Origin: Tremella fuciformis
Taxonomy: Eukaryota > Basidiomycota > Tremellomycetes > Tremellales > Tremellaceae
Assembly (NCBI GenBank): GCA_032768795.1
Contig: CP136490.1
Location: 2,294,001 to 2,358,000, forward strand
Direction of reading: 5' to 3'
Length of the DNA: 64,000 bases
The position numbers were made by a program, and so were the translations under genes. This document shows positions 1 through 58,087 of the stretch, in pieces (position 1 is the first letter of the stretch; every line of letters starts with the position of its first letter). The notes under the pieces are model-generated. The model did no database searches. It worked only from the letters and a program-made list of their open reading frames with translations, and was not told where the DNA came from.

Positions 1-1466
1 AAGTGACTCTGCCGTCGAGGAAGAAATATTGAGACCAGTCTCTGTGTTATCTGCAAGATCATTAGACCACTTTGAGATGAGCCGTCCAGTTACTGCTCAA
101 GAAATCGACCATCTGTGCGTCCGTATCCAAGCCTGCCCATCCAAAGAACGTCGCTGTGCCTTCGTCCTGTGCGGTCAGGATCTCTCTAGGACCAGGCTTG
201 GAGTGGATGTACCGAATTGGCGCCGATCAAGCTGGCGACCTTGGTGTCGAATTGCCCCGTCCTGAGAAGTTCGCTGGGCCAATCCGGTATCAAATCACCG
301 TCTATGATAGGAGTGAATCCAAAGCTGCTCGAAACATTATAGACGATGTCGAATGGCAATGCACGCAGGCAGTCGAGAGCGCTCGTCATTGTGAGATTGC
401 ATCCGGTCGAGTTGACGATACTCTGATAGATGGGTTCGTAGTGATCGAGGCTCTCTTACCGCATCAGAAGATTCGATACCCTCATATGACTTACGGTATG
501 TCGCCAGAGCAGTCCCACTCTCGTATATCGCCCCGCGAAACAGGCCAGACTGCTGGCCGCCATACGCCAAGACCTGTAACCCGACCGAATACGCGCCGGC
601 AGATTCTCCCCAAATGGTTATCTGCTCGGGATCTGTAGCGTCAAGGACAATAAGCTACAAAGTGCGCACGAACCGCCGCCGAATCCTGCGATGTTCCGTT
701 TGATCCATTGCAAAGCGAGACGCTGATCTTTGATACCGATATTCGTGTTGCCAGTGCGCATTACCTCCTCCGAGGCGATGAACCCGAAGATCGCGGTCCT
801 GGAGTCTGGTCAGCCTTCCCATCGCACCAAAGCCGTTCAAGCACTGCTCACCGATAATTCATGCTGACGGCAAATATTGGTTGACCCATGTCTTGACTCT
901 CTCGCACGATGTACGAGAGGTTGTAGACGGGATCGGAGGTAGCGCCAGCAGTATAACCTCCCCCGTAGATCCAGACTGATATGGACTCAGCTCACATCTG
1001 GGGACTGCCATTAGGGGCTGACCGAGAACAGGAAGTCCCTCGAGACCTCCCGCTGGGCGAATGACATTTAGCGTCAAACAATCTTCAGATTGATTGTCGG
1101 ATGCTGCCGTTCCTACAGCAAACGGCCCGTACTAAACCGTAAGCCCAGTCCCATGGTCCGCAGTGCGGCCTCATTTGGTGAGGTGAGGCAGACTTCGATG
1201 CTTACTTGTGGACAGCTTGCCGAGTATTGAAAGGCGTCATAGCCCCCGGCTGGGAACGACTGGTTGTAGGGGACCGGGTTGGAGAAGCGAAGACCGTTGT
1301 CAGGAGTCGGTGGTATAGCATAGGGTATGCCGAGAAATATGTCCTGGTCGAAATTGGGCAATTGAACACCGTTGACTTGCCCATTCTCGGTGTTGGCGTA
1401 CCAGCGCTTGACGGGACTAGCGCTGGCCAAGCCAACGCAAAAGAGAGAGTAGAAACAAAGCCTCAT
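1..1466 (-). CDS. Secreted type-B carboxylesterase/lipase, C-terminus beyond window
   Basis: Alpha/beta-hydrolase of the carboxylesterase type B family, likely an extracellular ester hydrolase. The start at 1466 gives a signal peptide (MRLCFYSLFCVGLASA). Next come the family's GIPYA..PP..LRF block, the SEDCLTLNV block (about 1045-1085), a VWIYGGGY oxyanion-hole segment, the IGIKDQRLALQWI segment and the nucleophile elbow GESAGA (about 605-615). The reading frame changes only at good intron borders, for example after NYR near 871 and after AGFGG near 665, so the visible part looks intact. The acid and His of the triad would lie left of the window. It is divergent from the aldolase gene at 1806. 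A second, transposon-split gene of the same family lies at 50315-60199. Exact substrate is unknown. Confidence 0.82.
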
Positions 1467-1805
1467 CCTGAAGGAAAGGATGATTGCCCAGGGGAGTCAA
1501 CTGCCATCCTCTTTTGTGGAGACCCGACTGCAGATGAACGAGGAGCTCCGCGCTTGTCTCGGCTGTTCAACGGATGGGTGACTAACAGGACGTTGCCTTC
1601 CGCGCCGGTCCGGCTCAGCAAGGCTGCCGTTGTATATCCAGCTCGGGCACGAGTGCCCCGCCGTCGGGATGGGTCGGCCAGCCGAAAGCAGTCCCGAGCC
1701 CTCCAAGCGCTGCTTTGCGAGTTCCGTAGAAGCCAGTGTAGCTTGTGCGCGGGGAAGGTCCTTCTCACAGCTTTCTCGAGATCCTTGGAGAACAAGTGAA
1801 CCGTC
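1467..1805. promoter_or_regulatory. Shared upstream region of divergent esterase and aldolase genes
   Basis: 339 bp between two divergent start codons. Open frames across it on both strands are not protein-like. No clear TATA box was seen; presumed bidirectional promoter. Confidence 0.4.
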
Positions 1806-3048
1806 ATGGCGGGTAAACGTTGGGCGAATGGGGTGTCTGTGCCAATCGTGACGCCTTTTCTCAATAGCGACGCTCGGCCTGTCGATCACCAAGCATTCGC
1901 CATGCAGGTAGTGAGGATCGCAAAAGCGGGATTGCAAGTCGTTGTCCTTGGGAGCAACGGAGAAGGTGAACCTCATCTAAGGGGCAGCTTGTTGTTGCTG
2001 AGTTCATAGCCGCCCATCTCACCAATGAAGAACGGGCAGAAGTGATCAAGACGGCGCGAAGGGCTCTCGATCAAAACGGGTTCATCGACAGCCCCTTACT
2101 CGCTGGAACGGGAGGTCAGCATGATGGGCGGCAGACACGGAATGTTTGGACTGACGCCAAGGCGGATCCGCGCAAACGACTATCCAGCTGTGTTGCGAAG
2201 CTGCACAATCGGGAGCTTCTCATGCCCTCGTCATCTGTCCGGGCTATTTCGCTTTTGCCATGGGGCGCGATCGGGCAGCCATAAAGCATTTTTTCCGAGA
2301 GGTCATGGACGCATCACCCATCCCAGTCATGCTTTACAATTTTCCGTAAGCAACTCATAGATTCGCTGGCGACTGTACTGATTTTGGGAAAGTGGAGCAG
2401 CGGGTGGGATTGATCTCGACTCGGACGAAATCAATGAGCTTGCCCTCCATCCGAACTGTTTTGGAGTAAAGGTGTGTGCGCCTTCGGGGCCAACATGGTC
2501 ATGCTGAAGACATACCAGCTGACTTGCGCGATGGTCGGTAAAGGTCAGCGCATTGCGGCATATACCCAGTCACCAGAGTATCTCGCGAAGCGAGGTGCTT
2601 CGCTTCAGGCGTGCAATGCTTCCGGCCGCTTCCTTGTTTTGCCTGGCTATGCGGAGTACCTTCTTCCTGCCATCCTCGCACGCCAACACGGGTCAGCATC
2701 CCCCATCAATCTGACTTCAGTAGGACATGCTGACTGCTCAGGTGTATCTCTGGCTCGGGCAACCTTTTCCCCAAGACCTTGAAGCTGTTATACGACGAGG
2801 CGCTTTCTGGCATCGACGGAGACTTCCACGCTTTGAGCCGAGCAATGCAGCTGCAAGACCGTGTTGCAGCATCAGATTTCATACTGGTCAAGGCGGGCAT
2901 CGCAGGGACGAAGTACGCCTTGGATCATTTTGTTGAGGAAGGCCTGGGGGGCATGACCAGGTATCCACTCGGACCGGTCTCCGAGCAAATCAAAGAGCAA
3001 ATCGTGGACGATCTGAAGGAGCATTGGGAGTTTGAACAGTCTTTGTAA
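1806..3048 (+). CDS. DHDPS-family class I aldolase (2-keto-3-deoxy acid aldolase type)
   Basis: Member of the dihydrodipicolinate synthase/N-acetylneuraminate lyase superfamily. It starts MAGKRWANGVSVPIVTPF and continues with the glycine-rich VVVLGSNGEA segment, the YNFP block whose Tyr assists catalysis, and FGVK-LT, whose Lys (codon ending at 2471) would form the Schiff base. Introns are seen after NGE-G (from about 1967) and at 2472-2518 directly after the catalytic Lys codon. The C-terminal exon is long, ending in DDLKEHWEFEQSL. In fungi this subfamily includes L-threo-3-deoxyhexulosonate aldolase of galacturonate catabolism and 4-hydroxy-2-oxoglutarate aldolases. With GH88 and FAH-family genes next door, a 2-keto-3-deoxy sugar acid is the favoured substrate (inference). 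Lysine synthesis is unlikely because fungi use the aminoadipate route. Confidence 0.85.
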
Positions 3049-3431
3049 GGAGAATGAGCGTGATACTGTTGATGCTTTTGGCTCCCTCTCGGCATTGATC
3101 GATGCAGACCCTAAGCAGTCCTGCGACCGCGTAGCCTCGCAGACTGAGGCCATCAGCATCCGTATGCATCGGGACTGCTCGTGTGGCTGAGCTGGGCCAC
3201 GAGGGCGCCGGGCGGTGTCTATGCCGAAGAACCGATGTAACCGTTGTATATCCGACCATGCCTCGGGACGGGGAACGTTGCAAACCCAGCAAGCCCTGTT
3301 GGTGCCATAGCCTATACACATTCCAGCTTAGGGCCATGTAGCTCAACTGCGAGACTTGACCTCTTCGACATCTGACCACATCTTGACCCGCTACCCTACC
3401 TTTGTCTCAATCGGAATCGCACTCTTCAGAG
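3049..3431. other. Intergenic, presumed GH88 promoter
   Basis: 383 bp between the aldolase stop and the GH88 start. No conserved coding segment or obvious TATA box was seen. Confidence 0.4.
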
Positions 3432-7905: not shown

Positions 7906-10104
7906 TTAAGACTGTGAGATGTGATCGTTGAACACCCATTGCAAATCTGTTTGATCCCCTTCAAAGATCCCCACTCCCGCCGAATCAAAGGAGGATACTG
8001 GTATCGGCATACCGCCGTTGCCCATCGTCCCGGTCGCGAGATCAGGGAGCTCCGCCTGCAGGAAATCGTCCGCTGTGAAAGTATTGGCGAACGGCCAGTC
8101 CAGGCCGGCCGTGTCCCACGGCATGGTCAGGCTGACCGTGAGAGGGTTCAGTACTTCTGACTCTTGAGATGGTGGGACGGCTGTTGTTACATTCGAGCCC
8201 CGTTGGGCATGTTGTTCCGTGGGGAGCATACCCAGACTCAAGAGCAACGTCGTTTTGGCCGCTTCGAATCCCTTTGCCAGGTCGTCTGAGGCCGAACAGA
8301 CGGCTTTGTGCTGCCGGATGATCTCGATGGCCATGTCCAGGAGGTCTTTGGCTTCGGTAGGGTGCATGTGCCCTTCGTCGCAAGTGGAAAGGACAAGCTG
8401 AGCGCAGGAGACGATGCGTTGCAGCTGTATCCAACACGGCTCCAGGTTATTCGACTGAGCTAGATCCCAGTACACCCGCAGGATACACGAAGCGGATCGA
8501 GCCAGCACTGAAAGGGAGGAAGAGGCTAGCAAAGGGTGACGGATCGTAGCGACTCGCAACATTATGCCAAGCCTAGACATGTTAGCGGGTGTGTCTGCCA
8601 AATCTTTGAGACTTGTTTGCGCAAGAAGGGACTGACCAGCTGACCCGGACCAGAGCCCAGCCAAGGAAGCCATGTTTGATTGTATCCTTTTCTCCCATGT
8701 GCACCTGTTGAACCGATTTTCGAAAGCTGTCCCAGCGATTCTCGATGTGCAGCACTGACTCGACATCTCGAGTGTCTTCTGGTCTCGTCAGAGCCAGAAA
8801 CTCAGCTTCAAATCGCATGATCTGCAACGATGTTGTAGAGACGAGTGCGGTTCCGGTGAAGTCCCAATCGATCTCAGGCCAGAGAATGTTGGGCTGGGCA
8901 TCAAGCAGTGTCGTTGCCATGCTGTTCATCAGCCCTGACCTGAGGACAGCCCTTCCCCCGCCCCGGGTCATAGGGTCTGCTGGGCTGAATGAATGGTGGA
9001 CATCGGCGACTAACCTCTCGATATATACCAGCGCCAGTAACATTCTCTCCACCTGGTCGTCTGCCTCGTACAGCATGGCCGTTTCCCGCTTGACCAGGCC
9101 CAGCTGGCGAATCTGCCAAGCCATCTGCTTCATCAAGTTCGACGTTTCTTCCTTCCCTCCGCGTCCGGCCGCATACGTGACGAGGTAATGCAGGGCAGCT
9201 GTCGGTCATTCAGCGACCTTTCTTAGCGGGCGATGTGTGAACTCACAAGCCGCATGCAAAGTAGGCCGGGTCCACAACTCAATGTTGGCCGCAGCCCGCC
9301 TATAGTAATCACCTGCCAACCTCTGCATCGATGATTTCGCTTCCCCCTCTTCCATGGTGAACGCCTTCAGGTCAGCGGACCGGCACAGTGCTGCTTGTAC
9401 TAGCGCAATCTGGTCTTCACCCAGCGTATGCGGTAGCTGGGTGTATCGGCCGAAGAGCGCCAGAATGCGATTCCGATTGATAAAGTCCAGGTGATGCGGA
9501 CTGGTCGTCACGTAGAATGACATGAGAGTAGACTCGATGGCAGAAGAGCGGTGAGGATGGGCAGGTGATGGGTTCGACATGGGCTTCAGGAGTAGCGTAT
9601 CACAATCTATGTATCGGACGAAAGAAGGGTCTAAACCTGCCTGTTAAGCCATCCGTGACTGTTCGATGGGCAGCTGCTTGCGTACCTCGTGATGCAGCCC
9701 ACTCAACAGCTAATTGCTCAATGGCTGCTACCACCGTATGTGCCGAACCGTCATTCGTGTCGTGTACCGGCACCGCTGCTTTCGACGTGACTGGAGGCCT
9801 CAATGTCTGCGGGGACGGAGGGGCCGACGCTGTTGGAGAAAGATTCAACAGGGACAGACTCTTGGCAGGGGTCCTAGACATATGAGCAATCAGTGAGACA
9901 TGGTACAGCTGTGCGTTACCTCGTAGGCCGTGCTTTGACTCGCATGCGACAGGCCTGAGGCCGATCCATGGCGCGACAGGCTTGACACGGCAAGTCACCA
10001 CTGCATTTGACCTTGCGGACACGACACGGGTCGCAAGCGACCGACCGCCTGCTTTTGGTCCTGATGGGCGACCCCGCTGGGCAGACAGCCGATTCTGAAG
10101 ACAT
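7906..10104 (-). CDS. Zn2Cys6 fungal transcription factor
   Basis: Gal4-type regulator. The start at 10104 gives MSSESAV and then a binuclear zinc cluster at about residues 25-55: CDPC, six residues, C, SGDLP, CQAC, then a final Cys. The middle region is the fungal-specific transcription factor domain: MSFYVTTSPHHLDFINRNRI, the helix-rich AGRGGKEET.. segment and the WPEIDWDF segment (8880-8900). The C-terminus is acidic and aromatic, ending GDQTDLQWVFNDHISQS, typical of an activation region. At least four introns. An upstream in-frame start at 10188 would lengthen it by 28 residues. Encoded between the transporter and the FAH-family gene, it is a good candidate local regulator of the sugar-acid cluster (inference). 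Confidence 0.85.
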
Positions 10105-10325: not shown

Positions 10326-13300
10326 CTACTCCTGCTTCATTTTGTTGATGAGCGTGCCGACCCCATGCGAAACGAAGACGCGGAACTCGTCGCCGTCCTT
10401 GAGAATCCTCCTCGGCGAAGCGTTCCACCCAACTCCCGGGGGTGTCCTATCCGAGTCAGCAGGAGAATAACTCAAGAAGACAAATCCTACGTACCCAGTG
10501 ATGATGACAGTACCGGCTTTCAAGGTGGTACCTTGGGACAGGTGCGAGATGATCTTGGGGATAGAGAATATTAGGTCGCTAGGAGGTCAGTGCACATCGG
10601 TGTGGTGTGTTTTGACAGAAGGGGGCTGCGCACCTGATATCACTCTCTTGGACCTTTTGCCCGTTATACTCTCCCGTCACGCGCACTTTCGATACATCGG
10701 CAATTGACTCCTTGGGTACAAAGGCCGGCCCTATGGGGCAGGATCCGTCGAACCCTTTTCCATGGCACCACTGCGACTGGTTGAACTGGGCTTTTCGCGT
10801 GGTCAGGTCGTTGGCTGCGGTGTAGCTTATGCCATCAGTCAGGTCTTCTGTGGGAGATCATAAGAACCCACCCAGCGAGGTAGTCCAGCGCATCGGCTTC
10901 GGAGACGTCCTTGCACTCTTTCCCAATGATCAACGCCAGCTCAGCCTCGTAGTCGAACGCTTCGTCCGCCGCGAAGCCTTTGGGCAGAATGGAGGGAGCG
11001 GGGAACGGGTCGGCTATAGCATCTTGCGGTTTGAAGAACACGGTCGGGTGTTCCGGGATGGCCAGGTCCATCTCCTTCGCATGAGAGACATACTAGGTGG
11101 ATCGACTCGAAGGCGAGGCGATGCGGCCGGGCGTAGCGATTGACGGATGGCACGATGAGAAGTCAGAAGTGAGTACGATGAGAAGAGGTAAACAACCAAT
11201 GAGCGTCGGGCAGTGGAGCGGCCGATTCTGTGGGGATATTCTGCGAGACCCTGTTTTCAGCCTTTTCCCACCCACTTTCAGAACTGCACTCATCACTGAA
11301 AACATTCTACTCACTATCCCACTGACTCTGCACGCTATCACCATGCCCCTCCGAAGGCGTCGAATCATCGAGAGCGAGTCTGAGTCGAGCAACCCGTCCG
11401 ATCTGTCTGATTTCGAGGCCGTTAGGTCATCCTCGAACCCTGCCGAGACCGCCGAGACCCGCAGCGAGACCCACGAGACCCACGAGACCCACGAAACCGG
11501 TCAGGAGGCCACCGAGGCGGGTGAAAAGGAGATTTTTGAGATTTTGGACTCGGATGAGGAAGGAAAAGATGCTTCGAAGCTGGAGAATGATCGTGAGGAG
11601 ACTCCGGTTGATGGTACGCACTCGTTATTCCACCTTTCCTTCATTTCCACACCTTTTCATGCATACCTTTTTCCACCCTTCCTTCTCATGCATGCATAGG
11701 GCATTGCTGATGCATAGGCGAGTTCTGGACACACTTCATCCACTCCTACCACCCTGGTACGGCCAAATGGCTTGTCCATTACTGGGGCTATGGCTGTGAG
11801 GCGGATGAAGCTGTGTCTCTGGACTTCTTTGTCAAGAACCCAGACAGCCCTCAGCCAGAGGAGTGTCTGGACATCTACCACCACCACTCTGTCAGCAAAA
11901 CTACACCTCTGCCCAAGCATGTCCCCTCTCCTCCAGCCAACCTCGACTTCTCTATACTGGAGCACAAGGATCACCCTGGCTGGGAGAGACCTTTGACTCA
12001 GAAGGAACAGGAGCAGTTCAAGAAGATCTATGCCGACTATGCCAGACAGAGGAAGGAGGAGAGGGAGAAGGAGAAGGAGAGGGAGAAGGAGAAGGAGAGG
12101 GAGAAGAAAAGACAGAGGAAGGACTTGGAGGGCATGGACATTCAGAGCTCAGAGGCCAAGGGGAAGAAGACAAAGAGGCAGTGGAAAGAGCTGTTGGCGG
12201 AGAAGGAGGGTGAGTTGAGCACTGCTCAGGTTGGAGTTGTGCAAGCCAGACTCAACCTTGGTCAAGCCAGAGCAGCTTACAAAGATGTGAAGAGGGAGGT
12301 GCAATGGCTGAAGGCCAAGATTGCACGCTGGGAATAGCTATCTATGCAGACTTAGGCTTGACTCATGCTGATTCTTAGATGAAAGCTTCCCCTCACACAA
12401 TTGTCCTTCAGCAACTGTCGCCACTCCTCTCAGCACCAACGGCACGCCCTTGCCCGGGGCCACTATTGCCAAGGGTAAGCTTTCCCTTCCACCACCCTCC
12501 CAGTCTGCCCCGCTCTCTGTGGCACACCTCTGCAGGTGGTGCTCAGGAGTTTGGGTGTGGTGTGGGCATGGTTTGTCGCCACTGCTCTGCCTGCTCAACA
12601 GACATCACCCCTCTCTGTCTGCACTGCTCTATGTGGCACATCCCTGCGGGTGTTGCTCAAGGGTTTGGGTGCGGTGTGGGCATGGTTTGTCGCCACTGCT
12701 CTGCCTGCTCAACAGACATCACCCCTCTCTGTCTGCACTGCTCTATGTGGCACATCCCTGCGGGTGTTGCTCAAGGGTTTGGGCAAGGTGTGGGCATGGC
12801 TTGTCGCCACTGCTCTGCCTTCCCATCAGGCATTGTCTGGCCTTCTTGCTACAAAAGCTGATGGAGGGCATAGCTCGACACACACGTAGCCAACGACGAG
12901 CATATGCTCGGGCCAAGCTCCAAGCAGAGCAGAAGCAGAATCACACCTTCACCCTCGCACCCCATCTTGCCATACTCCTTGGGCTGGACCGGACCGACAC
13001 ATCAATCCGCATACATCACTGCACACCGCATCCCTCTCGTCTTGCGGCAGCCCGTGATGTTTGTGCCACCAATGCCACCAACCCAGCACGCTATGGCTTT
13101 GTCTCTCTGCCAGAGATCAAGCATAAACTCAAAATGGATGGTATCCCACCGCTTGTCGAGCTGCACGATGGTTACAACATTTTGGTCAATGCAAACACGC
13201 ACGAGGTGTTTGGCATTGTCAACTACCGACTCCTTTCCGATCTGTCTGAAGCTCAGCAGGCCGAGGTCCTCCATGTCATGAGCCTGGTTGACCTTGTCTC

Positions 13301-36777: not shown

Positions 36778-39654
36778 TCAGAGACCCAGGATAAAGCTGA
36801 GGTCGATGTCTGTCCCCTGATACTGGAGCAGATTTGTGATGTCAAAATCCTCCGGCATCTCGAGTAGTCCCTTCTCAGTACCAACAGCGTTCAGGCGTCT
36901 GGCCCGTCAGGTCAACCCCACATACTGTCCGGCACACTCACGGTGGTCCCGCAACAGGTCCAAGCGTGACATCAAAGCCCGCTACTTTGCAGAGGTCCCG
37001 ACACGTGTTGGCGAGGTGAGTTGAGTTGCGAGCTAACGACAGGTCGGTAGTGCCGAGAACTCTAATGGCGGTTTCAAGCCAGTGTTCCACTACTAAGCGA
37101 TCCACTGGTGCAGGGTAGGAGTCTGGTAGTAGACGCAAACGGATCAGGAACACCGCCGCCTGAGCGAGTGACGACGCTATGTACTAGCTGTAAGCGGCTC
37201 GATGTTACCCAACTGTACGTGCACGCACGTCGATGGCGTACCCCAAATTCAACTCTGCTTTTGATGCACCTTTATGGTGCGCGCGGATCGTGTTGATCGC
37301 CGACTCGGCCGCCCTACGAACCCATTGGCGAAGCTCAGCGTCAAGTTGGGGGGTCATCTCGATACCCGTCAACAGACCGGAACGAAAGGCGAGGGTGTTC
37401 AAGGAGAGTCGGACGTGCTCGGCCTGCAGACGCACGACCCGCATGAGGTCGTCGCCGAGATGAAGGGCTTGCCGGGAGCCTACAATCAGCGTGGTCCCAA
37501 GATTTGCTCTGGCAGTACCATTCCAGAGCCATGTTGATGACCAGTCATCCAGCTGGGCATTTTGCTGCCTCAGTATCGTCCACAGTGGATGTCCGGTCAA
37601 GGGCGGGTTGTCGTTGAGTTTTTGTACGCTCGTTACGAGGCTGTTGACAATCTGGCCTATGAGATGACGCGAAGGAACGACCTATCACAACACGAGACTG
37701 ACATTTGTCAACTGGACCATGCCTGTGAGGTAGGCATCACCCTCCAGCTCAGCTTTCGATATGCCGATACAGTTTTGTGACAGTTGAAGGAAGTTTGACT
37801 CGAACGCGTCAATGCTCGCCGTACGTGGCCGACCGAATCCCAGTGAAAGGAAGCCGTCAAAACTGCCATTCAGTGGATTCTGAAAACCAGGCCATCCAGT
37901 CTCACTGCATCAGGCAAAGCCATGTGCGCCAACGAGGTAGCACCTTTTTCCGCAAATCCTCAGCATTGTGATCCGAATTGAGGTGTAGCCGATGCAGTCC
38001 CAGCCGGAGGGCCATCCGAGCACAGTGCCCAGTCAGAAGCCAAGGATCCCTTCCCCCTCTCTCTGTGCCCCATCCAGCAAGCAAGAGGGTCGCCTGAACA
38101 TCGGCGAGATGATGATCCTGGCGCAAAAGACTAGCGGCTAGATGCCCATTGGCTAATCTGCCAATGGCAAATGAAGCCTCCTCGCCGATTGGAGATAGCG
38201 AACCCTCAGAGGCGTGCTGAAGATGAGAGAAATGACCTCGGGAGAAACGCGAGGCAATAGACAAAATGGACGTAAATAGAAATGCTGACTGCCGCCGAAG
38301 GTCGTCAAATCTGGTTGTTTCGGCAGATTGGAGGGAGAGAATGGGCAGGTACAGATGGCAATTGTCAAAGAACCTGTGCATCAGCTTCCTCTTGGTTCGT
38401 TCAGTCATTGAGCACTCACAGATCGAGCAACTGCTTGGCTGCCTCGAGAGAGAGTATGCCTGTAGTCACAGGGTCATCGGCCGACTCCGGCTGGGCGTCA
38501 AAGAGCCTGACCTTGGATGCGGGCGCATCATTCGGGGGTGCTGGCGTCGGAGCCCGGCTTGGTTCACGGTTGTCCCAGATAGACGGATGATACGCCAAAG
38601 CCTGGAACGGAGCCGCGCGACTGCTTGGAGCGACAGCAATGGCCAATCGGGACTCTGGAGTGCTCTTTGCCCTTTCCGCAGTGGCGAGCACTCGGTTTGG
38701 AGATGGGCAGTTCGGGTTCGGCAAGTCGACGTTGATCATCTCCACCGAGAAGGCTCGGGATCCCGCACCAGCAGAGGTTGTAGCGCTAGGAGGCTGGGGC
38801 GAGACGATCGGAGGCGGCGGGGAGAAGACTGGCTCGGTGAAGGATGCACCATACATTGGATCGACGAGATTGAAAGTGCCACTACTGCTGTTTGACAAGA
38901 AGGTGGTTGGCTGCGGGAAGAGGGTGAATGCGAACGGATCAGCAGCTGTTGCGGGCAATGCCTGGGTATGGGACGCTCCGCCGCCGGAGAGGAAGTCGTC
39001 AACGGTCGAAGGCGGACGAGGGGGCGGTCCCTCCAAGCTCGGATTAACATCACTGTTGATGTTGCTGTAAGGAAGTGGACCGTTACGAGACGGCGTCTGC
39101 GAGGACGATTCGCCAGATTCCCGCCGACCATCGCTCGACAGCTGGCTCCTGAGATCACGCAGAATCGCTTCCAGCTGAGCAAGGCGGCTTGCTGGGTCGA
39201 GACCACCTCCAAATGCATCTTCGACAGAAGTGCTCGTGAGCGCGGACGACGAGTCGGCCAGCCTGGCCCGCTTCTCAGAGCGGCGTTCCGATCTGCGTTC
39301 CACGGCCGCAAACTCGCATTCCTCGTGGAGGCGCTGACATCGCCCACATGGATACTTGCCAGTACAACGTAGCTTCTTCTGCCTGCATCTCTGGCACGCC
39401 TGTGGTGTGCGAAAGATGGGGCCGTCGTACTCGCGTACCCGGCGGTGAGACACTGTTGCCGAGGGCGGGGTCGACGATGACCGACGAGGCGAGTCGGAAG
39501 GACCGGAGTCCTCGCGAACCTGATCGTTGTAGAACTGTCGGATATCTGCCTCTCGGACGACCGACATGAGATCGCTCCTCTTGTTCGGCGCGAGTCCGAG
39601 AGGGTCAGCAGCTACGGCAATTCTGGCAATGAAGCAGATAGATTCGGAAGTCAT
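36778..39654 (-). CDS. Zn2Cys6 fungal transcription factor next to GH32
   Basis: Large Gal4-type regulator. The zinc cluster CQRCRQKKLRC-TGKYP-CGRCQRLHEEC (about residues 86-112) is followed by a basic linker and a coiled-coil start (DPASRLAQLEAILRDLRSQL). A Pro/Ser-rich disordered region follows. The fungal-specific TF domain begins FFDNCHLYLPIL (about 38360) with the usual LLAGWGTERGGRDPWLLTGHCARMALRLGLHRL segment. The C-terminus is acidic: LLEMPEDFDITNLLQYQGTDIDLSFILGL. Five or more introns. The longest start is 39654; 39567 (MSVVREADIRQFYND) looks equally good and lacks the unusual hydrophobic lead. It is convergent with the GH32 gene, so it may regulate sucrose or fructan use (inference). 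Confidence 0.85.
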
Positions 39655-49693: not shown

Positions 49694-50668
49694 CGAGTAC
49701 CGTACCGTACGATGCACGATGCCCGCTCTCATACTCGTACCCGTGGGTCACTAGCGTCGAACCGACGGTCACTTTGGTCCATCCGGTAAAACATGCAACC
49801 GACTCTTTCCCCCGAGAAGCTACCTACCTGCTCAGGTGTTCAGGTGTTCTGCCCTACCTGGGTACACCTGGGTATGCCTGGGGCCCATGTCTCCAGTTCC
49901 GCCGAAACAAGACTCGGCGGCTGAGACACGGATGATTTGTCATGTTTGTTGTCATGGGTTCCTGCAATCGGCAACAACTACAACCGATTCGATTCGGACA
50001 AACCCTCTCCGAGACAACGTGGAGGCCGATCTTGCACGGACTGCTTCAGCGGATCGAGCTGTGGGGATCCGTGGAGGACTTCGTCACCCCGCTGCTGAGA
50101 GCGGTGACTCGCCCGGTATCTTCGGCACCATCGTCAATCACCGGACGCGACCCAATGATCGAACCGCTTTGACACTTACCAGTGGGTGACTAGTGTTTCA
50201 AGTGCACGCTAAACTACTCTTCGACACACGATTGATGAACATCACCGCCTGGCCGAGCGGCGAGGCATTGACTTCTGGCTTGCTGAACGGTATCTTGATC
50301 AGAGCGCTTCACGGATGATGCTCCTCACGAGTCTGGTGTGGCTGACAGAGGCCACAGCGGTCTTGTCGACCAACAGCCCTGTCGTCGAGCTCACTCAAGG
50401 TACTTACCAGGGCATCTATAACGAGAGCTCCGGAGTGCAGTATTTCCTGGGCATCCCGTACGGTGCAGATACGACTGGTCAGTCCACCTTGCCACTAGAG
50501 GCCTACTCCTGGGACCTGTTGGCAGCAGACACTGACTTGCCCAGGCGAGAACCGCTGGCGCGCGCCAAAGCCTCCAGTCGTGTCCGCAGGGCTGCAAATT
50601 GCCAACGGCACTGGTCTTGCGCAATGCCCCAGCACAGTGATCCCCGGCACCGGGTTCAGCCAGACCAC

Positions 50669-50981
50669 TGTCAAGACCGGACGTAGGATAGTCCGCGTCG
50701 AGCTGGGAAGTCGAGGTTGCCTCGCAGGGAGTATGCAATCGAGTAGGGTTACTAGAAGTAGACTGAGAGTACAAGAGATACATTCGACTAGAGATCTTCT
50801 CTACTCGAATGTCTACTATATGTATTCGAAAACCGTTCAACTATACTAGACAGTCCGAGTGCCGCATTTAGCAGTTCGGCTACTTCACCCGGATGAGGCA
50901 AGTGGGCGGTTGGCTGAGTCAGGCCGTGTGGCACTTGGCCTTGTCTCATTCCGCCACAGTCTCAGTGCCACAGTCCTGACA
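50669..50981 (-). repeat. 3' LTR of the chromovirus
   Basis: 313 bp, same sequence as 57775-58087 when compared by eye. It starts TGTCA and ends TGACA, so its own termini are a 5-bp inverted repeat. Confidence 0.95.
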
Positions 50982-50999
50982 GTCGCCCCCCTCTTCTTT
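50982..50999 (-). other. Polypurine tract
   Basis: On the element strand AAAGAAGAGGGGGG lies 4 bp before the 3' LTR, the usual primer site for plus-strand DNA synthesis. Confidence 0.7.
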
Positions 51000-51200
51000 G
51001 ATGTCGACCCGACATCCTCGGTTGTTGACATCCTTTATTCGACGTTGCGTCCTTTGGCACTGTGTGTTCGGTTCGTTGAGGTAGATGCCACGCCCGTAAG
51101 CCCGAGAGACGCCGTTGTTTACCCCTTCATGCAAGTTGTTGTTCTGGTTGTTGTGTCCGGACTTCGTCTTTCTTGAGTCGTCTTTCGTACTGTTCTCATC

Positions 51201-52880
51201 ATGGTCGACGACGAGCTGGCCGGATTCAATGTTGAGCAGGGCATACAAGATGCCTACGATGAGGCGTACCTCGGTACGGCCTCTGCGGACGACTATCGAA
51301 TTCAACTCCAGGCCGCTCGAGAGAACCTTGAAGCGCAGCCTGAAAATGCCATTTTCAAGTTTGAGGTCGACAAACTGGTTGCTGCGGGGAAGGCGGCTTT
51401 ACGTCGAGAAAGGGATAAATCCGTGAGTCGAATGCCAGTAGACGAACTTCGAGTTAAGCTGTTAGGGTTCCTCTCCCGTAAAGTCGACTCCTGCTCGTGC
51501 TGAGTCGGTATTCCCGCCTATTCAATCGCCTTTCAAGGCTCCCCTTGCTCCCATCGGTCGTCTCTCACCCAAGAAACACATCTTGGATCCCTCTCCTATC
51601 TCTCGTCAACCACCCTTCGGCTCGAGCAGCATTCCCGAGACACCGGCTAGTCAAAAGGGTCATGCTCATCGCCCTTTGGGCTTCCCTAAGGCCGCATCTC
51701 CGTCTGCCAAAGTCGTGTCTTCGGCTACTGAGGTCGGTCTGAGCGACTTGTTCGGCTCGGCCCCCGACTCGAGCCCGGGTCAGCCGATCCCTACTCCTTC
51801 GCCGACCAAGGCAGGTCGAACTCCTAGTGGGGTGTTCCCGAGGGTTGAAGGCGAAGAGTTGGTGGTCAAGCGTCTGAATCGCGTGTTTCGGTACCCGCTG
51901 AAAGAACCGGAGGTCGTTGGACACGACGACTCGAGGATCGAGTCCTTCTACTCGTGGATCGAGTCGTACATTTCGACTCGTACTGGCGACACCGCGGATA
52001 CCGGGTCGAACATCCTCGAAGCGCTCGACTCCGGCTCGTGGGGCGTCCTGATGGGGGCGGAGCGTTGTGCAGCCTGTGTGTCCCATAATCGCCCTCCCAT
52101 GTCGGGCTACTCGGGTCTACTCTGCGTCTGCCCGGTTGTGGAGGTCGATGGTAGGCGGTATGTGGCGCAGAAGTATGTTTTCGACTTACCGCACTCGATT
52201 TTCGCTGACGTATAGGTGTCTTGGGTGTATGCTCAAGTCGAAACACTGCACCCTTTCGCCCAACACCGCTCTTGGGCCCCGAGCTCAACTCGTCCTCCCC
52301 GCCGACGAGGTCGTTCGTCGTAAGGGTGTTATCGCAGGGATTCACCGCCAGGCGGCAGCTCTACTTGCCGACGCGAAACCCGGTCTGGCCCGTAATGCTA
52401 TCTTGGAGATCTATAGAATCAATTACTCCGAATATCAGGTAAGTGTAGTCGGATTTCGTCTTGGTCTTGTCGAGATCTGACTTGCAGCATTTGAACCGGA
52501 CTGCATTCCGCGGCGAGTCTCAAGTCGCTCTGCTAGGCTCGGGTGATCCTCCGTTGGTGTCTACACTCGACTGGAGCTCTTTGGACGACGCGATGGCCGA
52601 AGGCGCTGAGGAGGGGGTTGCGGGTCCCTCGGTGGTCGGTGGGGGTGGTTTGAAGCGGCTATTGGAGGACTCGCCCGCGCCCTCCATTCACTCGTCTCCC
52701 GACCGGCACCACTCGGTTACTCGACTTCTGTCTGCCCGAGCTGAGTCCCTCGAGTCGGAATCCGACCTCCCGCACCGCACGACCCGACTGCAGACCAAGG
52801 AGAAGACTGCCAGTGAGGCGAAGGCGCCACAGCGCGCCGCGCTTGGCGCCCTCAAGACGAAGCGCGGTCGCCGCAAGTGA
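51201..52880 (+). CDS. Spliced antisense gene within the chromovirus, Cys-motif protein of unknown function
   Basis: Runs opposite to gag-pol, between pol and the 3' LTR, ending 33 bp from the pol stop. Four exons, 51201-51422, 51466-52157, 52216-52438 and 52488-52880, join in frame to 509 codons. All introns are 43-58 nt with GT/AG ends, and the second (CTGAC) and third (CTGAC) have good branch points. Start MVDDELAGFNVEQGIQDAYD; an N-terminal helical part; a Ser/Pro-rich linker; a central folded region (VVKRLNRVFRYPLKEPE to SGSWGVLMG) leading to a cysteine set RCAACV..LLCVCPVV..RCLGCMLKSKHC created across intron 2; then RARNAILEIYRINYSEYQ-like helix and a basic tail ending TKRGRRK. I recognise no family; a zinc-binding nuclear protein is plausible. 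Confidence 0.72.
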
Positions 52881-52912: not shown

Positions 52913-55900
52913 TCATGCCGACTCCGTTCTCCAGCGCGGGGCACGCCTTATGCGTTTCGCATCGGATACTAGGGATTCGACTTGGCTGTCCTCGATGCCC
53001 TTCATCCACGACTCGAACCGCGGGTCCCCCTTTAGAGAGTCTGTTGGTTGCCAGGTCGGTTGTTGGTACCCCTTCCATTTCACAAGGACCTGGTCCTCGA
53101 GTTGTCTTGCCTTACCCCGGGATCGTCGAGCTCGTTTCAGTACCCCTTCCACTTCGTAAAGCTCCTCCTCGCTAGTGTGTGGGGCTGGTGGCGGAGCGAC
53201 CAGCGCGGGTTGCGCTTCGACTCGAGCCCCACGAACGTGCGACAAGAGCTCTACGTTGAAGACTGGGTGGACTCGATTGGCGACCAATTCCGGAGGCAGG
53301 TCCAGTTTATATGCGTTCTCGTTTATCCTTTCTAGTATGGAGTACGGTCCTACGTGACGGTGGTCGAATTTCCTAGTCGGACGGAGCGTGCGCAAGTTCT
53401 TGCCATTTAGCCAGACTTTGTCCCCTACTTGGAAGTCCGGTGTACGTCGACGCTTATCATATTGCTTCTTCCACCCTTCTTGGGCTCTGAGCAAGTTCCC
53501 TCGTATTCGATGGTGCAGCTGTTCTAGCTGCTGAACCCGGTCGGCGGCTGCTGGAACTTGCAGGTCGGACAGGTCTCCTGGCGGATCGACTAGGGTCGTA
53601 CGATATGCTCTCCCGGTGTAGGCCTCCAGGGGGCTCATACCCAGCGAGGCGTGGTGCGTGCTATTGTAGCAGAACTCCGCGTGCGGCAGTAGGGGCACCC
53701 AATTGTCTTGTTCGAGGTTCACATAGTTGCGTAGGTACTGTTCCAGCCATTGGTTCGTTCTCTCGGTTTGTCCGTCTGTTTGTGGGTGGTATGCTGTCGA
53801 GTAGCGCAGGTTGGTTCCTAGGCCTTGGCAGAAGGCTTTCCAGAATTTGGATACGAACAGACTCCCACGATCCGACACTATGCTGTCGGGTATGCCGAAA
53901 CGAGTATATACTCTATCCGTGAAGATTTCGGACATTCCTTTAGCGGTGATCGACTTGTGACAGGGCGCGAATACTGCCATCTTCGAGAAGCGATCCACGA
54001 CAACCATGATGGAGTCGTAGGTATTCGAGGTGGGCAGGTCGACTATGAAGTCCACAGACAGGTCTGCCCATGGTCGTAGTGGCGGTTCGAGCGGTCGAAG
54101 GAGGCCGTACGGTTTCTGTCTCGAGGGCTTGTTTCTTTGGCACTTCTCGCACTCCGCCGCAGATTTCTCTACATCCGTCTTGATGTTCGGCCACCACCAG
54201 TGTTGCCTAATTGCCTGATAAGTCTTTCGGGGTCCAGGGTGACCGGCCGAGACTATATCATGATGTGCCTCGATGACCTCTGTCCGAGACTTCGAGGGAC
54301 AGTAGTATGCTTTCGAGTGTCTATAGTATCCTTGCGTGTCTTGGGTTACTTTCCCGTCCGCGATCAATGATCCTAGCTCGTCGTCCCCTTCGTACAAGTC
54401 GGACGGCGTCTTGCCCAGCAGCTGTACTTGTAGGGAGAGTAGCAACTGTTCTGAGGACAGGAGCGGTCGGAAATTGTGTCCGTTGAGTTCCTGAGACAGG
54501 CTCGTGGCTGTCGAGTCGGTGGGGAGGTAATCCGGTCTTCGACTGAGGGCGTCCGGTTTAGTACTTTGCTTCCCCGAACGATAGGAGATCTCGAAGTTGA
54601 AGTCTGCCATCATCTCTGCCCATCGTGCCTGTCGTCGGGTCAGTTGCTTGGTTGACAAGAAGGTTTCCAGGCTGCGGTGGTCGGTGAGCACTTGTGTCCG
54701 GTGTCGGGCACCTTCCAGGTAGTGTCGCCATTCCTTGAAAGCGTACACGATTGCCAAGAATTCCTTGTCGTGTATCGGGTAGTTCAACTCGGCTGGCGAC
54801 ATGACTCGACTCGAATATGCGACTGGGCGCAGTCCATTCTCCCCGTCTTTCTGGGATATGACTGCCCCGATCGCGAAATCGGACGCGTCGGTCTCTACCA
54901 CGCATTCCTGGTCTGGGTCATAGTGTTTCAGGACGGGTCCGGTCGTCATTTTCGTCTTGAGCAGGTCGAACGCCGCCTGGTGCGGTTCCGACCAGGAGAA
55001 CGGGGTCGACTTCCGAGTGAGTTCGTGCAGTGGCTTAGCTACCTTGGCGAACCCTGCTATGAACCTTCGATAGAAGTTTGCGAACCCCAGGAAGGATTGG
55101 ACTTCCTTGACGTTCCGAGGTGCTGGCCATGCCGACACCGCTCGCACCTTGTTCGGGTCCATCGATACGCCCTTCGGGTCGATGATGTAGCCCAGGAACT
55201 CTACGGAGTCGGTATGGAACTGGCACTTGTCGTGTTTTGCGAACAGTTCGAATTTCCGCAGTCGTTGTAGGACTTCTTTGACGTGCCCCTCGTGCTCGCT
55301 CCGTGACTTCGAGAAGATAAGTATGTCGTCCAGATAGACTATGACGAAAATGTCCAGCACATCGCGGAATATGTGGTTCATCAAGTGTTGGAATGAGGCT
55401 GGGGCATTCGTGAGGCCGAATGGCATCACTCGGTACTCGAACAGCCCGAACCGAGTCCTGAATGCGGTTTTCCATTCTTCCCCGGCGGCGATCCGGAGGA
55501 GGTTGTACGCGCCACGTAGGTCTATTTTTGAGTAGATAGTGGCCGCACGGAGTTGGTCTAGTAGATCTCCGATCAACGGTAGGGGATAACGGTTCTTGAC
55601 GGTTATGTTATTCAACTTGCGGTAGTCCACGCAGAGGCGTAAGGATCCGTCTTTCTTCTTTACGAATAAAATTGGCGAGGCCGCTGGCGACTCCGAAGGT
55701 ACGATAAAGCCTTTCTTGAGGTTCGTATCCAAGTAGTCTCGGAGGGCCTCCTGTTCGGTCACGGACAGCGAGTAGATCGGGCCGAATGTCGGCTCAGCGC
55801 CGTCGAGTAGCGGGATGCGGTGGTCGAAAGGCCTATGAGGAGGTAGCTTGGTGGCCTCCGACTCCGAGAAGACATCCAGGAACTCGTGGTATTCCGTAGG

Positions 55901-56455
55901 TACCACTTCCTCCATCCGAGGTGGGTCCACGGAGATGGCTCGTAGGTAGATCGCCCCCTTGGGTTCGTCTGTAATCTGTTCGAATGCCTCGGCCGAGATG
56001 AGGGAGATTGCTTTTAGTTTTCCCGACTTGCCCTGGTGTGATCTCGAGGGAGGAGGTTGAATGGCCAGGTTATCCCAGTCGAGCGTTGGCTTGACTTCTT
56101 TGAAGAATGGCGCCCCAAGGATGATGGGGCCCACATCTAGTCTGGCGACCAGAAATGTAGCTGTGTAGGGCTGGAACCCTTCCCCTAGCAAGAGGGTGAG
56201 GGTAACCTCTTGTTCGATAGCGCTGCGGGAGCCATCCGCTAATCGTAGGGTCTGTTTGATTCTAGAAGGGCGCAATTCGAGTTTCGACTCGATGGCGTAG
56301 GTTTCCTCTATAAAGTTCCGGGAGGCCCCGGTGTCGAGCAGCGCTCGGGAGACTAGTGATTGTTTGTTTGCGATCGCGACGGGTATATGGAAAAGGTCTG
56401 GGGTATCAGGAATAGTTGGCGTCGAGATTGGGAGTGCGGCGAAGGTGGCGGTCAC
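52913..56455 (-). CDS. pol: Chromovirus Pol polyprotein
   Basis: About 1,180 residues in an unbroken frame. Order: aspartic protease (DTGA at 41-44), reverse transcriptase (about 245-430; VDYRK, FGLTNAPASFQ, YLDD at 374-377), RNase H (TDAS at 522-525, then DKEF), integrase zinc domain (HHDIVSAGH...CEKC, about 731-772), integrase core D802, D862, E898, GPY/F segment (VGPYSI) and a C-terminal chromodomain (about 1100-1152; VLVKWKGYQQPTWQP), the mark of chromoviruses. The frame begins GTG rather than ATG at the gag stop (overlap GTGA) and is -1 relative to gag, so Pol is probably made as a fusion by frameshifting. It copies and inserts the element. Confidence 0.95.
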   Translation of the reverse strand: MTATFAALPISTPTIPDTPDLFHIPVAIANKQSLVSRALLDTGASRNFIEETYAIESKLELRPSRIKQTLRLADGSRSAIEQEVTLTLLLGEGFQPYTATFLVARLDVGPIILGAPFFKEVKPTLDWDNLAIQPPPSRSHQGKSGKLKAISLISAEAFEQITDEPKGAIYLRAISVDPPRMEEVVPTEYHEFLDVFSESEATKLPPHRPFDHRIPLLDGAEPTFGPIYSLSVTEQEALRDYLDTNLKKGFIVPSESPAASPILFVKKKDGSLRLCVDYRKLNNITVKNRYPLPLIGDLLDQLRAATIYSKIDLRGAYNLLRIAAGEEWKTAFRTRFGLFEYRVMPFGLTNAPASFQHLMNHIFRDVLDIFVIVYLDDILIFSKSRSEHEGHVKEVLQRLRKFELFAKHDKCQFHTDSVEFLGYIIDPKGVSMDPNKVRAVSAWPAPRNVKEVQSFLGFANFYRRFIAGFAKVAKPLHELTRKSTPFSWSEPHQAAFDLLKTKMTTGPVLKHYDPDQECVVETDASDFAIGAVISQKDGENGLRPVAYSSRVMSPAELNYPIHDKEFLAIVYAFKEWRHYLEGARHRTQVLTDHRSLETFLSTKQLTRRQARWAEMMADFNFEISYRSGKQSTKPDALSRRPDYLPTDSTATSLSQELNGHNFRPLLSSEQLLLSLQVQLLGKTPSDLYEGDDELGSLIADGKVTQDTQGYYRHSKAYYCPSKSRTEVIEAHHDIVSAGHPGPRKTYQAIRQHWWWPNIKTDVEKSAAECEKCQRNKPSRQKPYGLLRPLEPPLRPWADLSVDFIVDLPTSNTYDSIMVVVDRFSKMAVFAPCHKSITAKGMSEIFTDRVYTRFGIPDSIVSDRGSLFVSKFWKAFCQGLGTNLRYSTAYHPQTDGQTERTNQWLEQYLRNYVNLEQDNWVPLLPHAEFCYNSTHHASLGMSPLEAYTGRAYRTTLVDPPGDLSDLQVPAAADRVQQLEQLHHRIRGNLLRAQEGWKKQYDKRRRTPDFQVGDKVWLNGKNLRTLRPTRKFDHRHVGPYSILERINENAYKLDLPPELVANRVHPVFNVELLSHVRGARVEAQPALVAPPPAPHTSEEELYEVEGVLKRARRSRGKARQLEDQVLVKWKGYQQPTWQPTDSLKGDPRFESWMKGIEDSQVESLVSDAKRIRRAPRWRTESA

Positions 56456-57726
56456 GCTGAGGCGTACCTCGCCGCCGCGGGGCTGGGGTACGCCAACTTG
56501 TTTTCCGAATCGTCTTTGTCGAATTTCGTATGATCGAGGTTGGCGTTCGCATTCGGTGATTCGTGTCTAATACCATTGAGGCGGACTGCGTTCGCCCCCG
56601 ATGCGGGGCTGTTTCGAGGAGCTCGCGTTTTCGGGACCGTGGGGCAGTTGGCTACAATGTGATCCGGGCTCTCACAGTATAGACACAGGTTTTTGTCCAT
56701 CCGTCGCTGTCTTTCGCTGGGCGAGATCCTACCCCTCGAGTGTCCGTCGTCCTTCCGATATCTCTGGTTGGTCGGGGGTCGAGAGGGCGGATTCGGGGAT
56801 CGAACGTAGTCCCTCGAAGGTCTGTCGGCGCGGTCGCGAGAGTGAGTTGTCGCCGGCGCCTCGCCGAACCTTTTCGAGGTAGCTCGCTCCGGCTCGCGCT
56901 GCAGCAAGTTGTTGCGGACACTGTCCTGTTGTACATTGAGACGAATCGCTACGTCCGCCAGCTCTTTTAGGGATCTGGGCTCGTGCTCGCGATTCGCTAT
57001 GGCCAGGCGGATCTCGGGTCGCAGACCCGACTCGAACATGTCCCGTAGGCTACGGTCCTCATACTCCACATCGGCTGAGATCGCCAGGAATCGTGCATAG
57101 TATTCCGAGACCGTGCGGGTTTGCGACAGTTTCTTGAGTCGCTGCACCGCAATTCGGTGTCTATCCGGGTCGCCGAACATGTCCTGTAACTCGGAAATGA
57201 AATGGTCCAAGTCGGAACAAAAAAGGGGTTGTTCGATTTTCGGCCTGTTGAAGTACGGTTCCCACCAACGAAGGGCATTTCCTCGTAGGTAGGATGCCGC
57301 CCAAATGACTTGCCTCCGCGAGTCCAGGCCACCGCCTTGCATGCTAAGGTACATTCGTACCTGGGTAATGTATTGCGGTAGCTTATCGCGGTCACCGTGA
57401 TATTCATCTGGGGGGTTCACCTTGAAGGATCTCGTCGCGTTCGAAATCCTCTGAGCGGACTCGAGCGGCGAGTGGTCGTGGTCGAGATCCGTGTCCGTGA
57501 TCTCTTCCAGGGGTGTACCTTGCGCGGCTCCCGTGTGATGAGTGGTTGCCGGGGTGGCCCGTTCGGCCAATGCGAGACGGGCGGCCGCTAGGGCCGAGTC
57601 GCTCTGCTCCTTGGCTTGGCGAAGCTCGAGTATCTGACGTCGGAGTTCCTCAACCTCCGTAGGAGTGTCGAGGTCCTCCGAGTCCGGGTCGACATGCGAC
57701 CGTAGTTGGCGAGTGGAAGCACTCAT
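56452..57726 (-). CDS. gag: Chromovirus Gag
   Basis: 424 residues from ATG 57726 (MSASTRQLRSHVD). An N-terminal coiled coil (EELRRQILELRQAKEQ) is followed by the retrotransposon gag domain (WAASYLRGNALRWWEPYF, QDMFGDPDRHRIAVQRLKKL, FLAISADVEY) and a basic Arg/Ser/Pro region. A single zinc knuckle CLYCESPDHIVANC (CX2CX4HX4C, about 56655-56700) follows. Forms the virus-like particle and binds the genomic RNA. It ends TGA at 56452, overlapping the pol frame. Confidence 0.93.
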   Translation of the reverse strand: MSASTRQLRSHVDPDSEDLDTPTEVEELRRQILELRQAKEQSDSALAAARLALAERATPATTHHTGAAQGTPLEEITDTDLDHDHSPLESAQRISNATRSFKVNPPDEYHGDRDKLPQYITQVRMYLSMQGGGLDSRRQVIWAASYLRGNALRWWEPYFNRPKIEQPLFCSDLDHFISELQDMFGDPDRHRIAVQRLKKLSQTRTVSEYYARFLAISADVEYEDRSLRDMFESGLRPEIRLAIANREHEPRSLKELADVAIRLNVQQDSVRNNLLQREPERATSKRFGEAPATTHSRDRADRPSRDYVRSPNPPSRPPTNQRYRKDDGHSRGRISPSERQRRMDKNLCLYCESPDHIVANCPTVPKTRAPRNSPASGANAVRLNGIRHESPNANANLDHTKFDKDDSENKLAYPSPAAARYASA

Positions 57727-57757
57727 GTTCCTCGACTTGCAATACTCAGTGCGAGTA

Positions 57758-57772
57758 TAGTCGAATGTATCT
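57758..57772 (-). other. Self-complementary primer binding site
   Basis: On the element strand AGATACATTCGACTA lies 2 bp after the 5' LTR. It is the exact reverse complement of a 15-nt stretch inside the LTR (57892-57906), as in Tf1/sushi elements whose RNA 5' end primes reverse transcription in place of a tRNA. Confidence 0.75.
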
Positions 57773-57774
57773 AA

Positions 57775-58087
57775 TGTCAAGACCGGACGTAGGATAGTCC
57801 GCGTCGAGCTGGGAAGTCGAGGTTGCCTCGCAGGGAGTATGCAATCGAGTAGGGTTACTAGAAGTAGACTGAGAGTACAAGAGATACATTCGACTAGAGA
57901 TCTTCTCTACTCGAATGTCTACTATATGTATTCGAAAACCGTTCAACTATACTAGACAGTCCGAGTGCCGCATTTAGCAGTTCGGCTACTTCACCCGGAT
58001 GAGGCAAGTGGGCGGTTGGCTGAGTCAGGCCGTGTGGCACTTGGCCTTGTCTCATTCCGCCACAGTCTCAGTGCCACAGTCCTGACA
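57775..58087 (-). repeat. 5' LTR of the chromovirus
   Basis: 313 bp with TGTCA...TGACA ends, matching 50669-50981. If self-priming is right, the R region starts at the TAGTCGAATGTATCT copy (element strand, 57906-57892). Confidence 0.95.

Follow-up and report, generated by a model that had tools for sequence, protein, structure and literature searches.

The window, i.e., the whole stretch of 64,000 nt that was analysed, contains a 7.4-kb chromovirus with identical 313-nt LTRs and the 5-bp duplication (TSD) ACCAC on both sides. In the sense direction, the element is ordered as 5' LTR, gag, pol, an antisense gene, and 3' LTR (Table 1). Pol matched RVT_1, RT_RNaseH, Integrase_H2C2, SH3_Tf2-1, and rve above the Pfam cut-offs, while the protease match was below cut-off. 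The chromodomain (Chromo, E 0.0011) was below its own cut-off yet at the expected place. The features of a chromovirus, i.e., Ty3/gypsy type with RT, RNase H, integrase, and C-terminal chromodomain, were found in this element, and its assignment in the original prediction was upheld. Gag translation probably starts at the first ATG, which lies 18 codons into the listed ORF (MSAST...). One scan of viral_contigs with Pol as query gave no match. Just before the element, at 50315-50668, the start of an ORF with a weak carboxylesterase match was found (COesterase, E 0.0055), and the element may interrupt a carboxylesterase-like gene. The ORF on the other side (after 58087) showed no match.

The antisense gene fills the gap from the pol stop (52913) to the 3' LTR without overlapping pol. 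The two genes are placed tail to tail, and 32 nt separate their stop codons. The gene had been described as lying opposite gag-pol. It is on the antisense strand, but it does not lie opposite the gag-pol coding sequence, since it is placed behind pol. A purine-rich tract (sense strand) was found at the LTR end of the leader, and the leader is probably the site of the antisense promoter or 5' UTR.

Table 1. Features of the chromovirus in the window and antisense genes predicted behind pol in the other chromovirus families of the genome.
Feature	Position	Strand	Description
3' LTR	50669..50981	-	313 nt, TGTCA...TGACA; identical to 57775-58087; upstream of antisense gene
Leader, 3' LTR to ATG	50982..51200	+	219 nt
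Antisense gene	51201..52880	+	four exons, three introns
Exon 1	51201..51422	+	222 nt; 74 codons, phase 0 end
Intron 1	51423..51465	+	43 nt; 50 nt in L021, L022, and L024
Exon 2	51466..52157	+	692 nt; long Ser/Pro-rich stretch and first Cys group, CAAC...CVC
Intron 2	52158..52215	+	58 nt; splits the Cys module
Exon 3	52216..52438	+	223 nt; second Cys group, CLGCMLKSKHC, then a further segment
Intron 3	52439..52487	+	49 nt
Exon 4	52488..52880	+	393 nt; tail end KTKRGRRK, basic, NLS-like
pol	52913..56455	-	protease, RT, RNase H, integrase, chromodomain
gag ORF	56452..57780	-	listed start is TTG inside the LTR; Retrotrans_gag, 4.6e-12
5' LTR	57775..58087	-	313 nt
L026 gene 1		antisense	204 codons; two introns (44 and 39 nt)
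L026 gene 2		antisense	CEQC...CLRC...C; model incomplete
L046 genes 1 and 2		antisense	related to the L026 genes; models incomplete
L027 gene		antisense	268 codons; three introns (39, 40, and 42 nt), the borders of the second being ambiguous among several
L029 gene A		antisense	118 codons, no intron
L029 gene B		antisense	286 codons, one 70-nt intron
L030 ORF		antisense	102 codons, start GTG

The four exons were joined to 1530 nt, i.e., 509 codons and a stop. The exon borders of the original prediction were exact to the base. All three introns are GT-AG, with the donors GTGAGT, GTATGT, and GTAAGT and the acceptors TTAG, ATAG, and GCAG in introns 1, 2, and 3, respectively. Upstream of the acceptors of introns 2 and 3, a CTGAC box was found, which we take to be branch-point-like. 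The cysteine set ERCAACV...LLCVCP...RRCLGCMLKSKHC becomes complete once intron 2 is removed, and this prediction was confirmed in the joined exons. The cysteines are spaced C-x2-C-x15-C-x11-C-x2-C-x6-C, and a seventh cysteine is also present. If intron 2 were retained, the reading would meet an in-frame stop, i.e., the acceptor's own TAG, so unspliced RNA would give a truncated protein without the second Cys group. The 509-residue protein showed no Pfam family at E<=1. In protein database searching of limited sensitivity, no relative of the protein was found among the best 8000 candidates scored, and none was found with the exon 2 ORF as query.

The copies of the gene were searched in a genome of 28.1 Mb in 11 contigs, where repeat counts are lower bounds. 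The gene was found in at least 17 places (20 matching pieces), and all 17 were fetched, L009 being the window copy. When the exon borders of the window were applied, the exon frame was intact in 15 of the 17 copies. The two broken copies carry a 20-nt insertion in exon 3 (L022) and a 206-nt deletion across exon 1, intron 1, and exon 2 (L023). The sole exon indel among the 15 intact copies is a 3-nt deletion in L024, which keeps all seven cysteines of the window module. Relatives with randomly broken frames were looked for, as the original prediction had proposed, and the copies did not show this pattern.

All three introns were in ordinary form in 13 of the 17 copies. A 7-nt insertion in intron 1 is common to L021, L022, and L024, and intron 2 of L025 holds a 440-nt insert with the frame intact. 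The intron 2 donor of L024 is CT instead of GT. Its intron 2 splicing would need another donor, i.e., the in-frame AG/GTGCTA three bases upstream, or would fail. No copy lacked all of its introns (0/17), and L023 lost intron 1 inside its larger deletion. This agrees with the proposal that the introns persist by orientation, because the element would be copied through sense RNA, in which they are not introns.

Both LTRs were found within the fetched stretch and were mutually identical in 12 copies, and one LTR was found in each of the other five. Among the 12 copies with LTR pairs, the 5-bp duplication was perfect in nine, matched at four of five bases in L019, and was absent in L023 and L024. 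Because L023 has identical LTRs and a broken gene, either an element can do without the gene in cis or the gene broke after insertion. Two more partial pol matches (C6:1519610 and C1:713810) with 98-99% identity do not reach the end of pol, and the gene was matched at neither of them.

The dN/dS ratio across copies was calculated by the Nei-Gojobori method. Between the window copy and L024, which are 14% different, dN was 0.071 and dS 0.455, i.e., a ratio of 0.156, and the comparison with L021 gave 0.145. In the window-L024 pair, pol showed 0.071 and gag 0.106; the selection signal on the antisense gene is only somewhat weaker than on these genes. In exon 2 of the same pair, the ratio was 0.150 in the gene's frame and 0.34, 1.19, 1.91, 2.25, and 2.35 in the other five frames. 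The substitutions at codon positions 1, 2, and 3 were 49, 29, and 133 (chi-square p about 1.6e-19). The leader region (50969-51200) was 11.6% diverged.

In a set of 12 young copies, i.e., the window copy and L010-L020 with L021-L025 left out, 29 changes were synonymous (392 sites) and 17 were non-synonymous (1135 sites). With the variants treated as independent, the Fisher p is about 2e-7. In this set, variable sites were more frequent in introns (9/150) than in exons (46/1530). Between the window copy and L024, introns differed at 16 of 150 sites, less than the synonymous sites (about 132/389), and this does not fit the rest of the picture. The LTR pairs are identical while the copies differ, so the differences would have passed through transposition rounds under selection for the protein. 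Purifying selection keeps the antisense protein frame intact in most copies. Of the maintained, nuclear-expressed accessory function proposed originally, the maintenance is supported by dN/dS and by the 15 intact frames; the nuclear expression belongs to the model discussed below.

The origin of the gene was searched with the protein as query. Of 72 pieces in the genome, all but three lay inside the 17 places, and these three were all on contig C10. Two of them belong to L028 (44% and 51% identity, one with stops), a decayed relative with a gene relic followed by pol relics, tail to tail. The pol relic showed 40% identity over the last 84 pol residues. The layout is that of the window, so it must date from before the present family arose. 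The third piece is a 46-codon frame with 60% identity over 42 residues. No host homolog was found in the 28.1 Mb by this protein query, and the capture of a host gene, which had been raised at first, was not supported.

Six other chromovirus families of the genome were read behind pol, i.e., L026, L027 (second copy L032), L029, L030, L031, and L046. Their Pol proteins are 48-52% identical to that of the window element. LTR pairs were located in L026 (679 nt), L027 (198 nt), L029 (605 nt), and L030 (668 nt), and a partial LTR match only in L046. Antisense Cys genes, one or two in each, were found in five of the six families. They show six cysteines in the twin CxxC...C layout, and three of the genes have modelled introns. 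In the 3' region of L031, no twin-Cys ORF was seen; a different open frame of 344 codons was found there, presumably a copia-like gag.

Nine antisense Cys modules were thus obtained from six families, the window's included. The six cysteines align in all nine, but the modules were picked by Cys pattern, so this invariance is not independent evidence. In translated frames, the twin-Cys pattern occurred five times in 20 kb of L026, L027, L029, L030, and L031, always antisense to pol, and once in 600 kb of Markov shuffles of these loci. The background of real DNA is higher than that of the shuffles: apart from those in the element, the 64-kb window shows three patterns, of which two lie in a tandem array and the third at a host-type Zn2Cys6 motif. 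The tandem array lies at 12495-12820 (period 114 nt, 2.9 copies). The host-type Zn2Cys6 motifs of the window are CQRCRQKKLRC...CGRCQRLHEEC at 39316-39396 (-) and CDPCRVRKVKC at 10003-10035 (-). A further twin-Cys pattern antisense to pol, at 586-681 of L046 in TGCATGCA-rich DNA, was left out of the count.

Gene 2 of L046 and gene 2 of L026 shared 47% identity over 104 residues (E 4e-30), and their genes 1 shared 23% over 154 residues (E 3e-9). In BLAST among ten proteins, the window protein was weakly similar to L046 gene 1 (E 2e-5, with no composition correction or low-complexity filter). L029 gene A had one near-identical protein in the protein database, on a 903-nt contig. In L029, the coding strand of the gene B region (1960-3170) contains many GCGCCCGC / GCGGCCGC repeats. 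The 2.8 kb fetched as L048 (G000:C3:8800-11600), close to the end of contig C3, contains a Cys gene with CYRC...CARCVYHGQPC at 1341-1544 (-). It is related to L026 gene 2 (E 7e-11) and no pol match was found near it in the fetched stretch.

Selection was tested in two of the six families with antisense Cys genes, i.e., the window's and that of L027. In the latter, 15 copies (L027 and L032-L045) of 19 matches covering the gene were compared. The spliced 268-codon frame with GT-AG introns was intact in 14 of the 15, and L035 had one stop. The variants were 24 synonymous and 11 non-synonymous, the L035 stop being among the 11, for 196 and 611 sites.

The Zn(II)2Cys6 cluster has the spacing C-x2-C-x6-C-x5to16-C-x2-C-x6to8-C. 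The spacing of L029 gene A, exactly C-x2-C-x6-C-x8-C-x2-C-x6-C, fits this range, while the window module is outside it with 15 residues between the second and third cysteines. The modules share the twin CxxC...C groups with the Zn(II)2Cys6 cluster (PF00172; GAL4, AlcR), and in its weak model L029 gene A has a helical segment after the cluster, as they do. They differ in long gaps in some modules, in the seventh cysteine of the window module, and in their scores. Zn_clus was the most frequent Pfam match (three of nine modules), but none reached its cut-off of 21 bits, and the best match of 19.1 bits spans half of the profile. The window module showed no Pfam match. In PDB searching with the nine-module profile, AlcR (E 0.12) and Pho7 (E 0.38) were the top two, and neither was significant. 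GAL4 was the first match of L029 gene A, also not significant (E 0.41). Zn_clus was outscored by NADH-G_4Fe-4S_3 (iron-sulphur, E 0.014) in L029 gene A and by GRXCR1-2_C (E 0.023) in L026 gene 2. In the single-sequence model of L029 gene A, each CxxC lies at a short helix, and a long helical hairpin is also present. The model is weak (mean pLDDT 66), and the rows of a VIA-align structural look-up with this model mostly cover the hairpin only. We call the module zinc-cluster-like and do not file it under Zn2Cys6.

In two sister families, the second gene matched DUF3716 weakly (E 0.21 and 0.053), below its cut-off of 22 bits; the window gene did not match it. In the genome, DUF3716 had two weak matches, i.e., C3:10140, which is the L048 Cys gene, and C1:3911081. 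The latter appears to be a chance match, and kinase-like frames were recognized by eye around it. CGG-type pairs showed no consistent excess in five LTRs; two of 24 tests gave p<0.05 (0.046 and 0.026).

Antisense extra genes in LTR elements are an established kind, fungi included. In plants, aORF-3R genes (Grande gene23, RIRE2, and Retand ORF4 with TRP28) are described, in the accessible parts of the sources, as antisense, placed from pol to the 3' LTR, and conserved in most copies (PMC7264820, PMC11963269). The window gene agrees with them in strand, in its place between pol and the 3' LTR, and in the frame kept in 15 of 17 places. In contrast with them, it belongs to a chromovirus, contains three introns and a Cys module, and has no TRP28 (no Pfam match at E<=1). 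The accessible text reports the Grande antisense product as nuclear (PMC7264820) and suggests DNA binding for TRP28 (PMC11963269); the function of such genes is called an open question there (PMC7264820). The available main text of the Retand paper does not contain the word "intron" (PMC11963269).

The Boty-like elements of Botrytis carry the antisense gene brtn, according to the available portions of three papers (PMC7264820, PMC8365987, PMC4227169). Boty is likewise described as a fungal Ty3/gypsy element with a chromodomain, and brtn as an antisense gene in the space from pol to the 3' LTR. To the original prediction, an intron-bearing Cys-motif gene in a fungal chromovirus looked new. This holds in part: fungal Ty3/gypsy elements with an extra gene on the antisense strand have a precedent in print, i.e., brtn, as described in the accessible part of PMC7264820. 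In the literature covered, with few subscription papers, no report was found of intron-bearing antisense genes of LTR retrotransposons, the spliced ones of HTLV being known, nor of antisense genes with a Cys module, nor of such genes being common to several fungal chromovirus families.

HBZ of HTLV-1 and APH-2 of HTLV-2 are, in the portions available, antisense, spliced genes that start at the 3' LTR and regulate LTR activity, and APH-2 is stated to be nuclear (PMC3185765). The window gene agrees with them in splice sites and position, as read from the DNA. It differs from HBZ in that no Pfam bZIP was found in its protein (E<=1), in that the HBZ start codon is in an exon within the 3' LTR, and in that HTLV is an infectious retrovirus of people.

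The many Zn_clus genes and the short introns indicate that the host is probably a fungus. We consider it fairly probable that the chromovirus, then a fungal one, carries an antisense accessory gene for a zinc-cluster-like, HBZ-like nuclear regulator. Transcription would start from the 3' LTR or the adjoining 219-nt leader in the direction opposite to gag-pol, and three nuclear splicing events would give the 509-residue protein. At its centre, the seven-cysteine module would probably bind zinc in the general layout of the fungal Zn(II)2Cys6 cluster, and the C-terminus of the protein is basic. The protein most likely would go back to the nucleus and bind DNA or chromatin. It could regulate the element by acting on transcription from the LTR, on silencing, or on what becomes of the pre-integration complex, as may be compared with HBZ of HTLV-1. 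The related elements with similar genes suggest that such elements make their own nuclear regulator protein. It is a more tentative proposal, about which our doubt slightly exceeds our belief, that one or two antisense genes of zinc-cluster-like nuclear proteins, often with introns, are a general feature of fungal chromoviruses beside the 3' LTR. They would form a class of self-encoded regulators analogous to HBZ, old enough for the families to have diverged almost beyond recognition. If the zinc-cluster regulator is true, fungal retrotransposons would encode their own transcription or chromatin factor. The window gene would also illustrate cleanly how introns can be retained in a retroelement by virtue of strand. 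Since the antisense gene has a domain signature and shows selection, and since five other families of the genome have parallels, the proposal is directly testable.

A real accessory gene with another function is unlikely but deserves consideration. Instead of belonging to a DNA-binding regulator, the Cys module could be a zinc knuckle that binds protein or RNA and acts together with Gag, or else in the assembly of particles or their nuclear import. The Cys spacing of the window, far from Zn2Cys6 and without Pfam match, and the Ser/Pro-rich stretch of exon 2 are consistent with it, and a retroviral Gag polyprotein chain was also among the five weak PDB matches of the nine-module profile (E 5.2). 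However, the introns and the strand of the gene imply that it is expressed separately from the genomic RNA, and the same profile matches zinc-cluster factors first, although not significantly. Among the nine antisense proteins, which come from six families, six contain the NLS-like stretch K[KR]x[KR], a common motif for which no background was computed; in the window protein it lies near the C-terminus.

The antisense transcript itself might be the main product, forming dsRNA with the sense RNA to limit or tune the element, with the protein secondary. The accessible part of PMC7264820 discusses the formation of dsRNA from antisense transcripts that LTR elements produce. This is improbable, for it predicts no reading frame, yet dN/dS is about 0.15 and most copies keep the frame. 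A host gene captured once as a passenger, or a nested older transposon, is no less improbable. Introns are typical of host genes, and the 152 Zn_clus matches of the genome, of which all but two of those listed are over the cut-off, are a possible module source. However, a passenger does not agree with the purifying selection across copies, the failure of the protein query to find a host homolog in the genome, the same place of the gene in the 14%-diverged copy and the decayed relative, or the like layout in other families.

An Env-like protein would fit the position between pol and the 3' LTR, but is very improbable on the wrong strand and without a strongly hydrophobic stretch (best 19-residue Kyte-Doolittle mean 1.14). 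The fungal cell wall also speaks against it. A chance open frame, the least credible of all, is refuted by the frame-specific selection signal and the 15 intact copies of 17.
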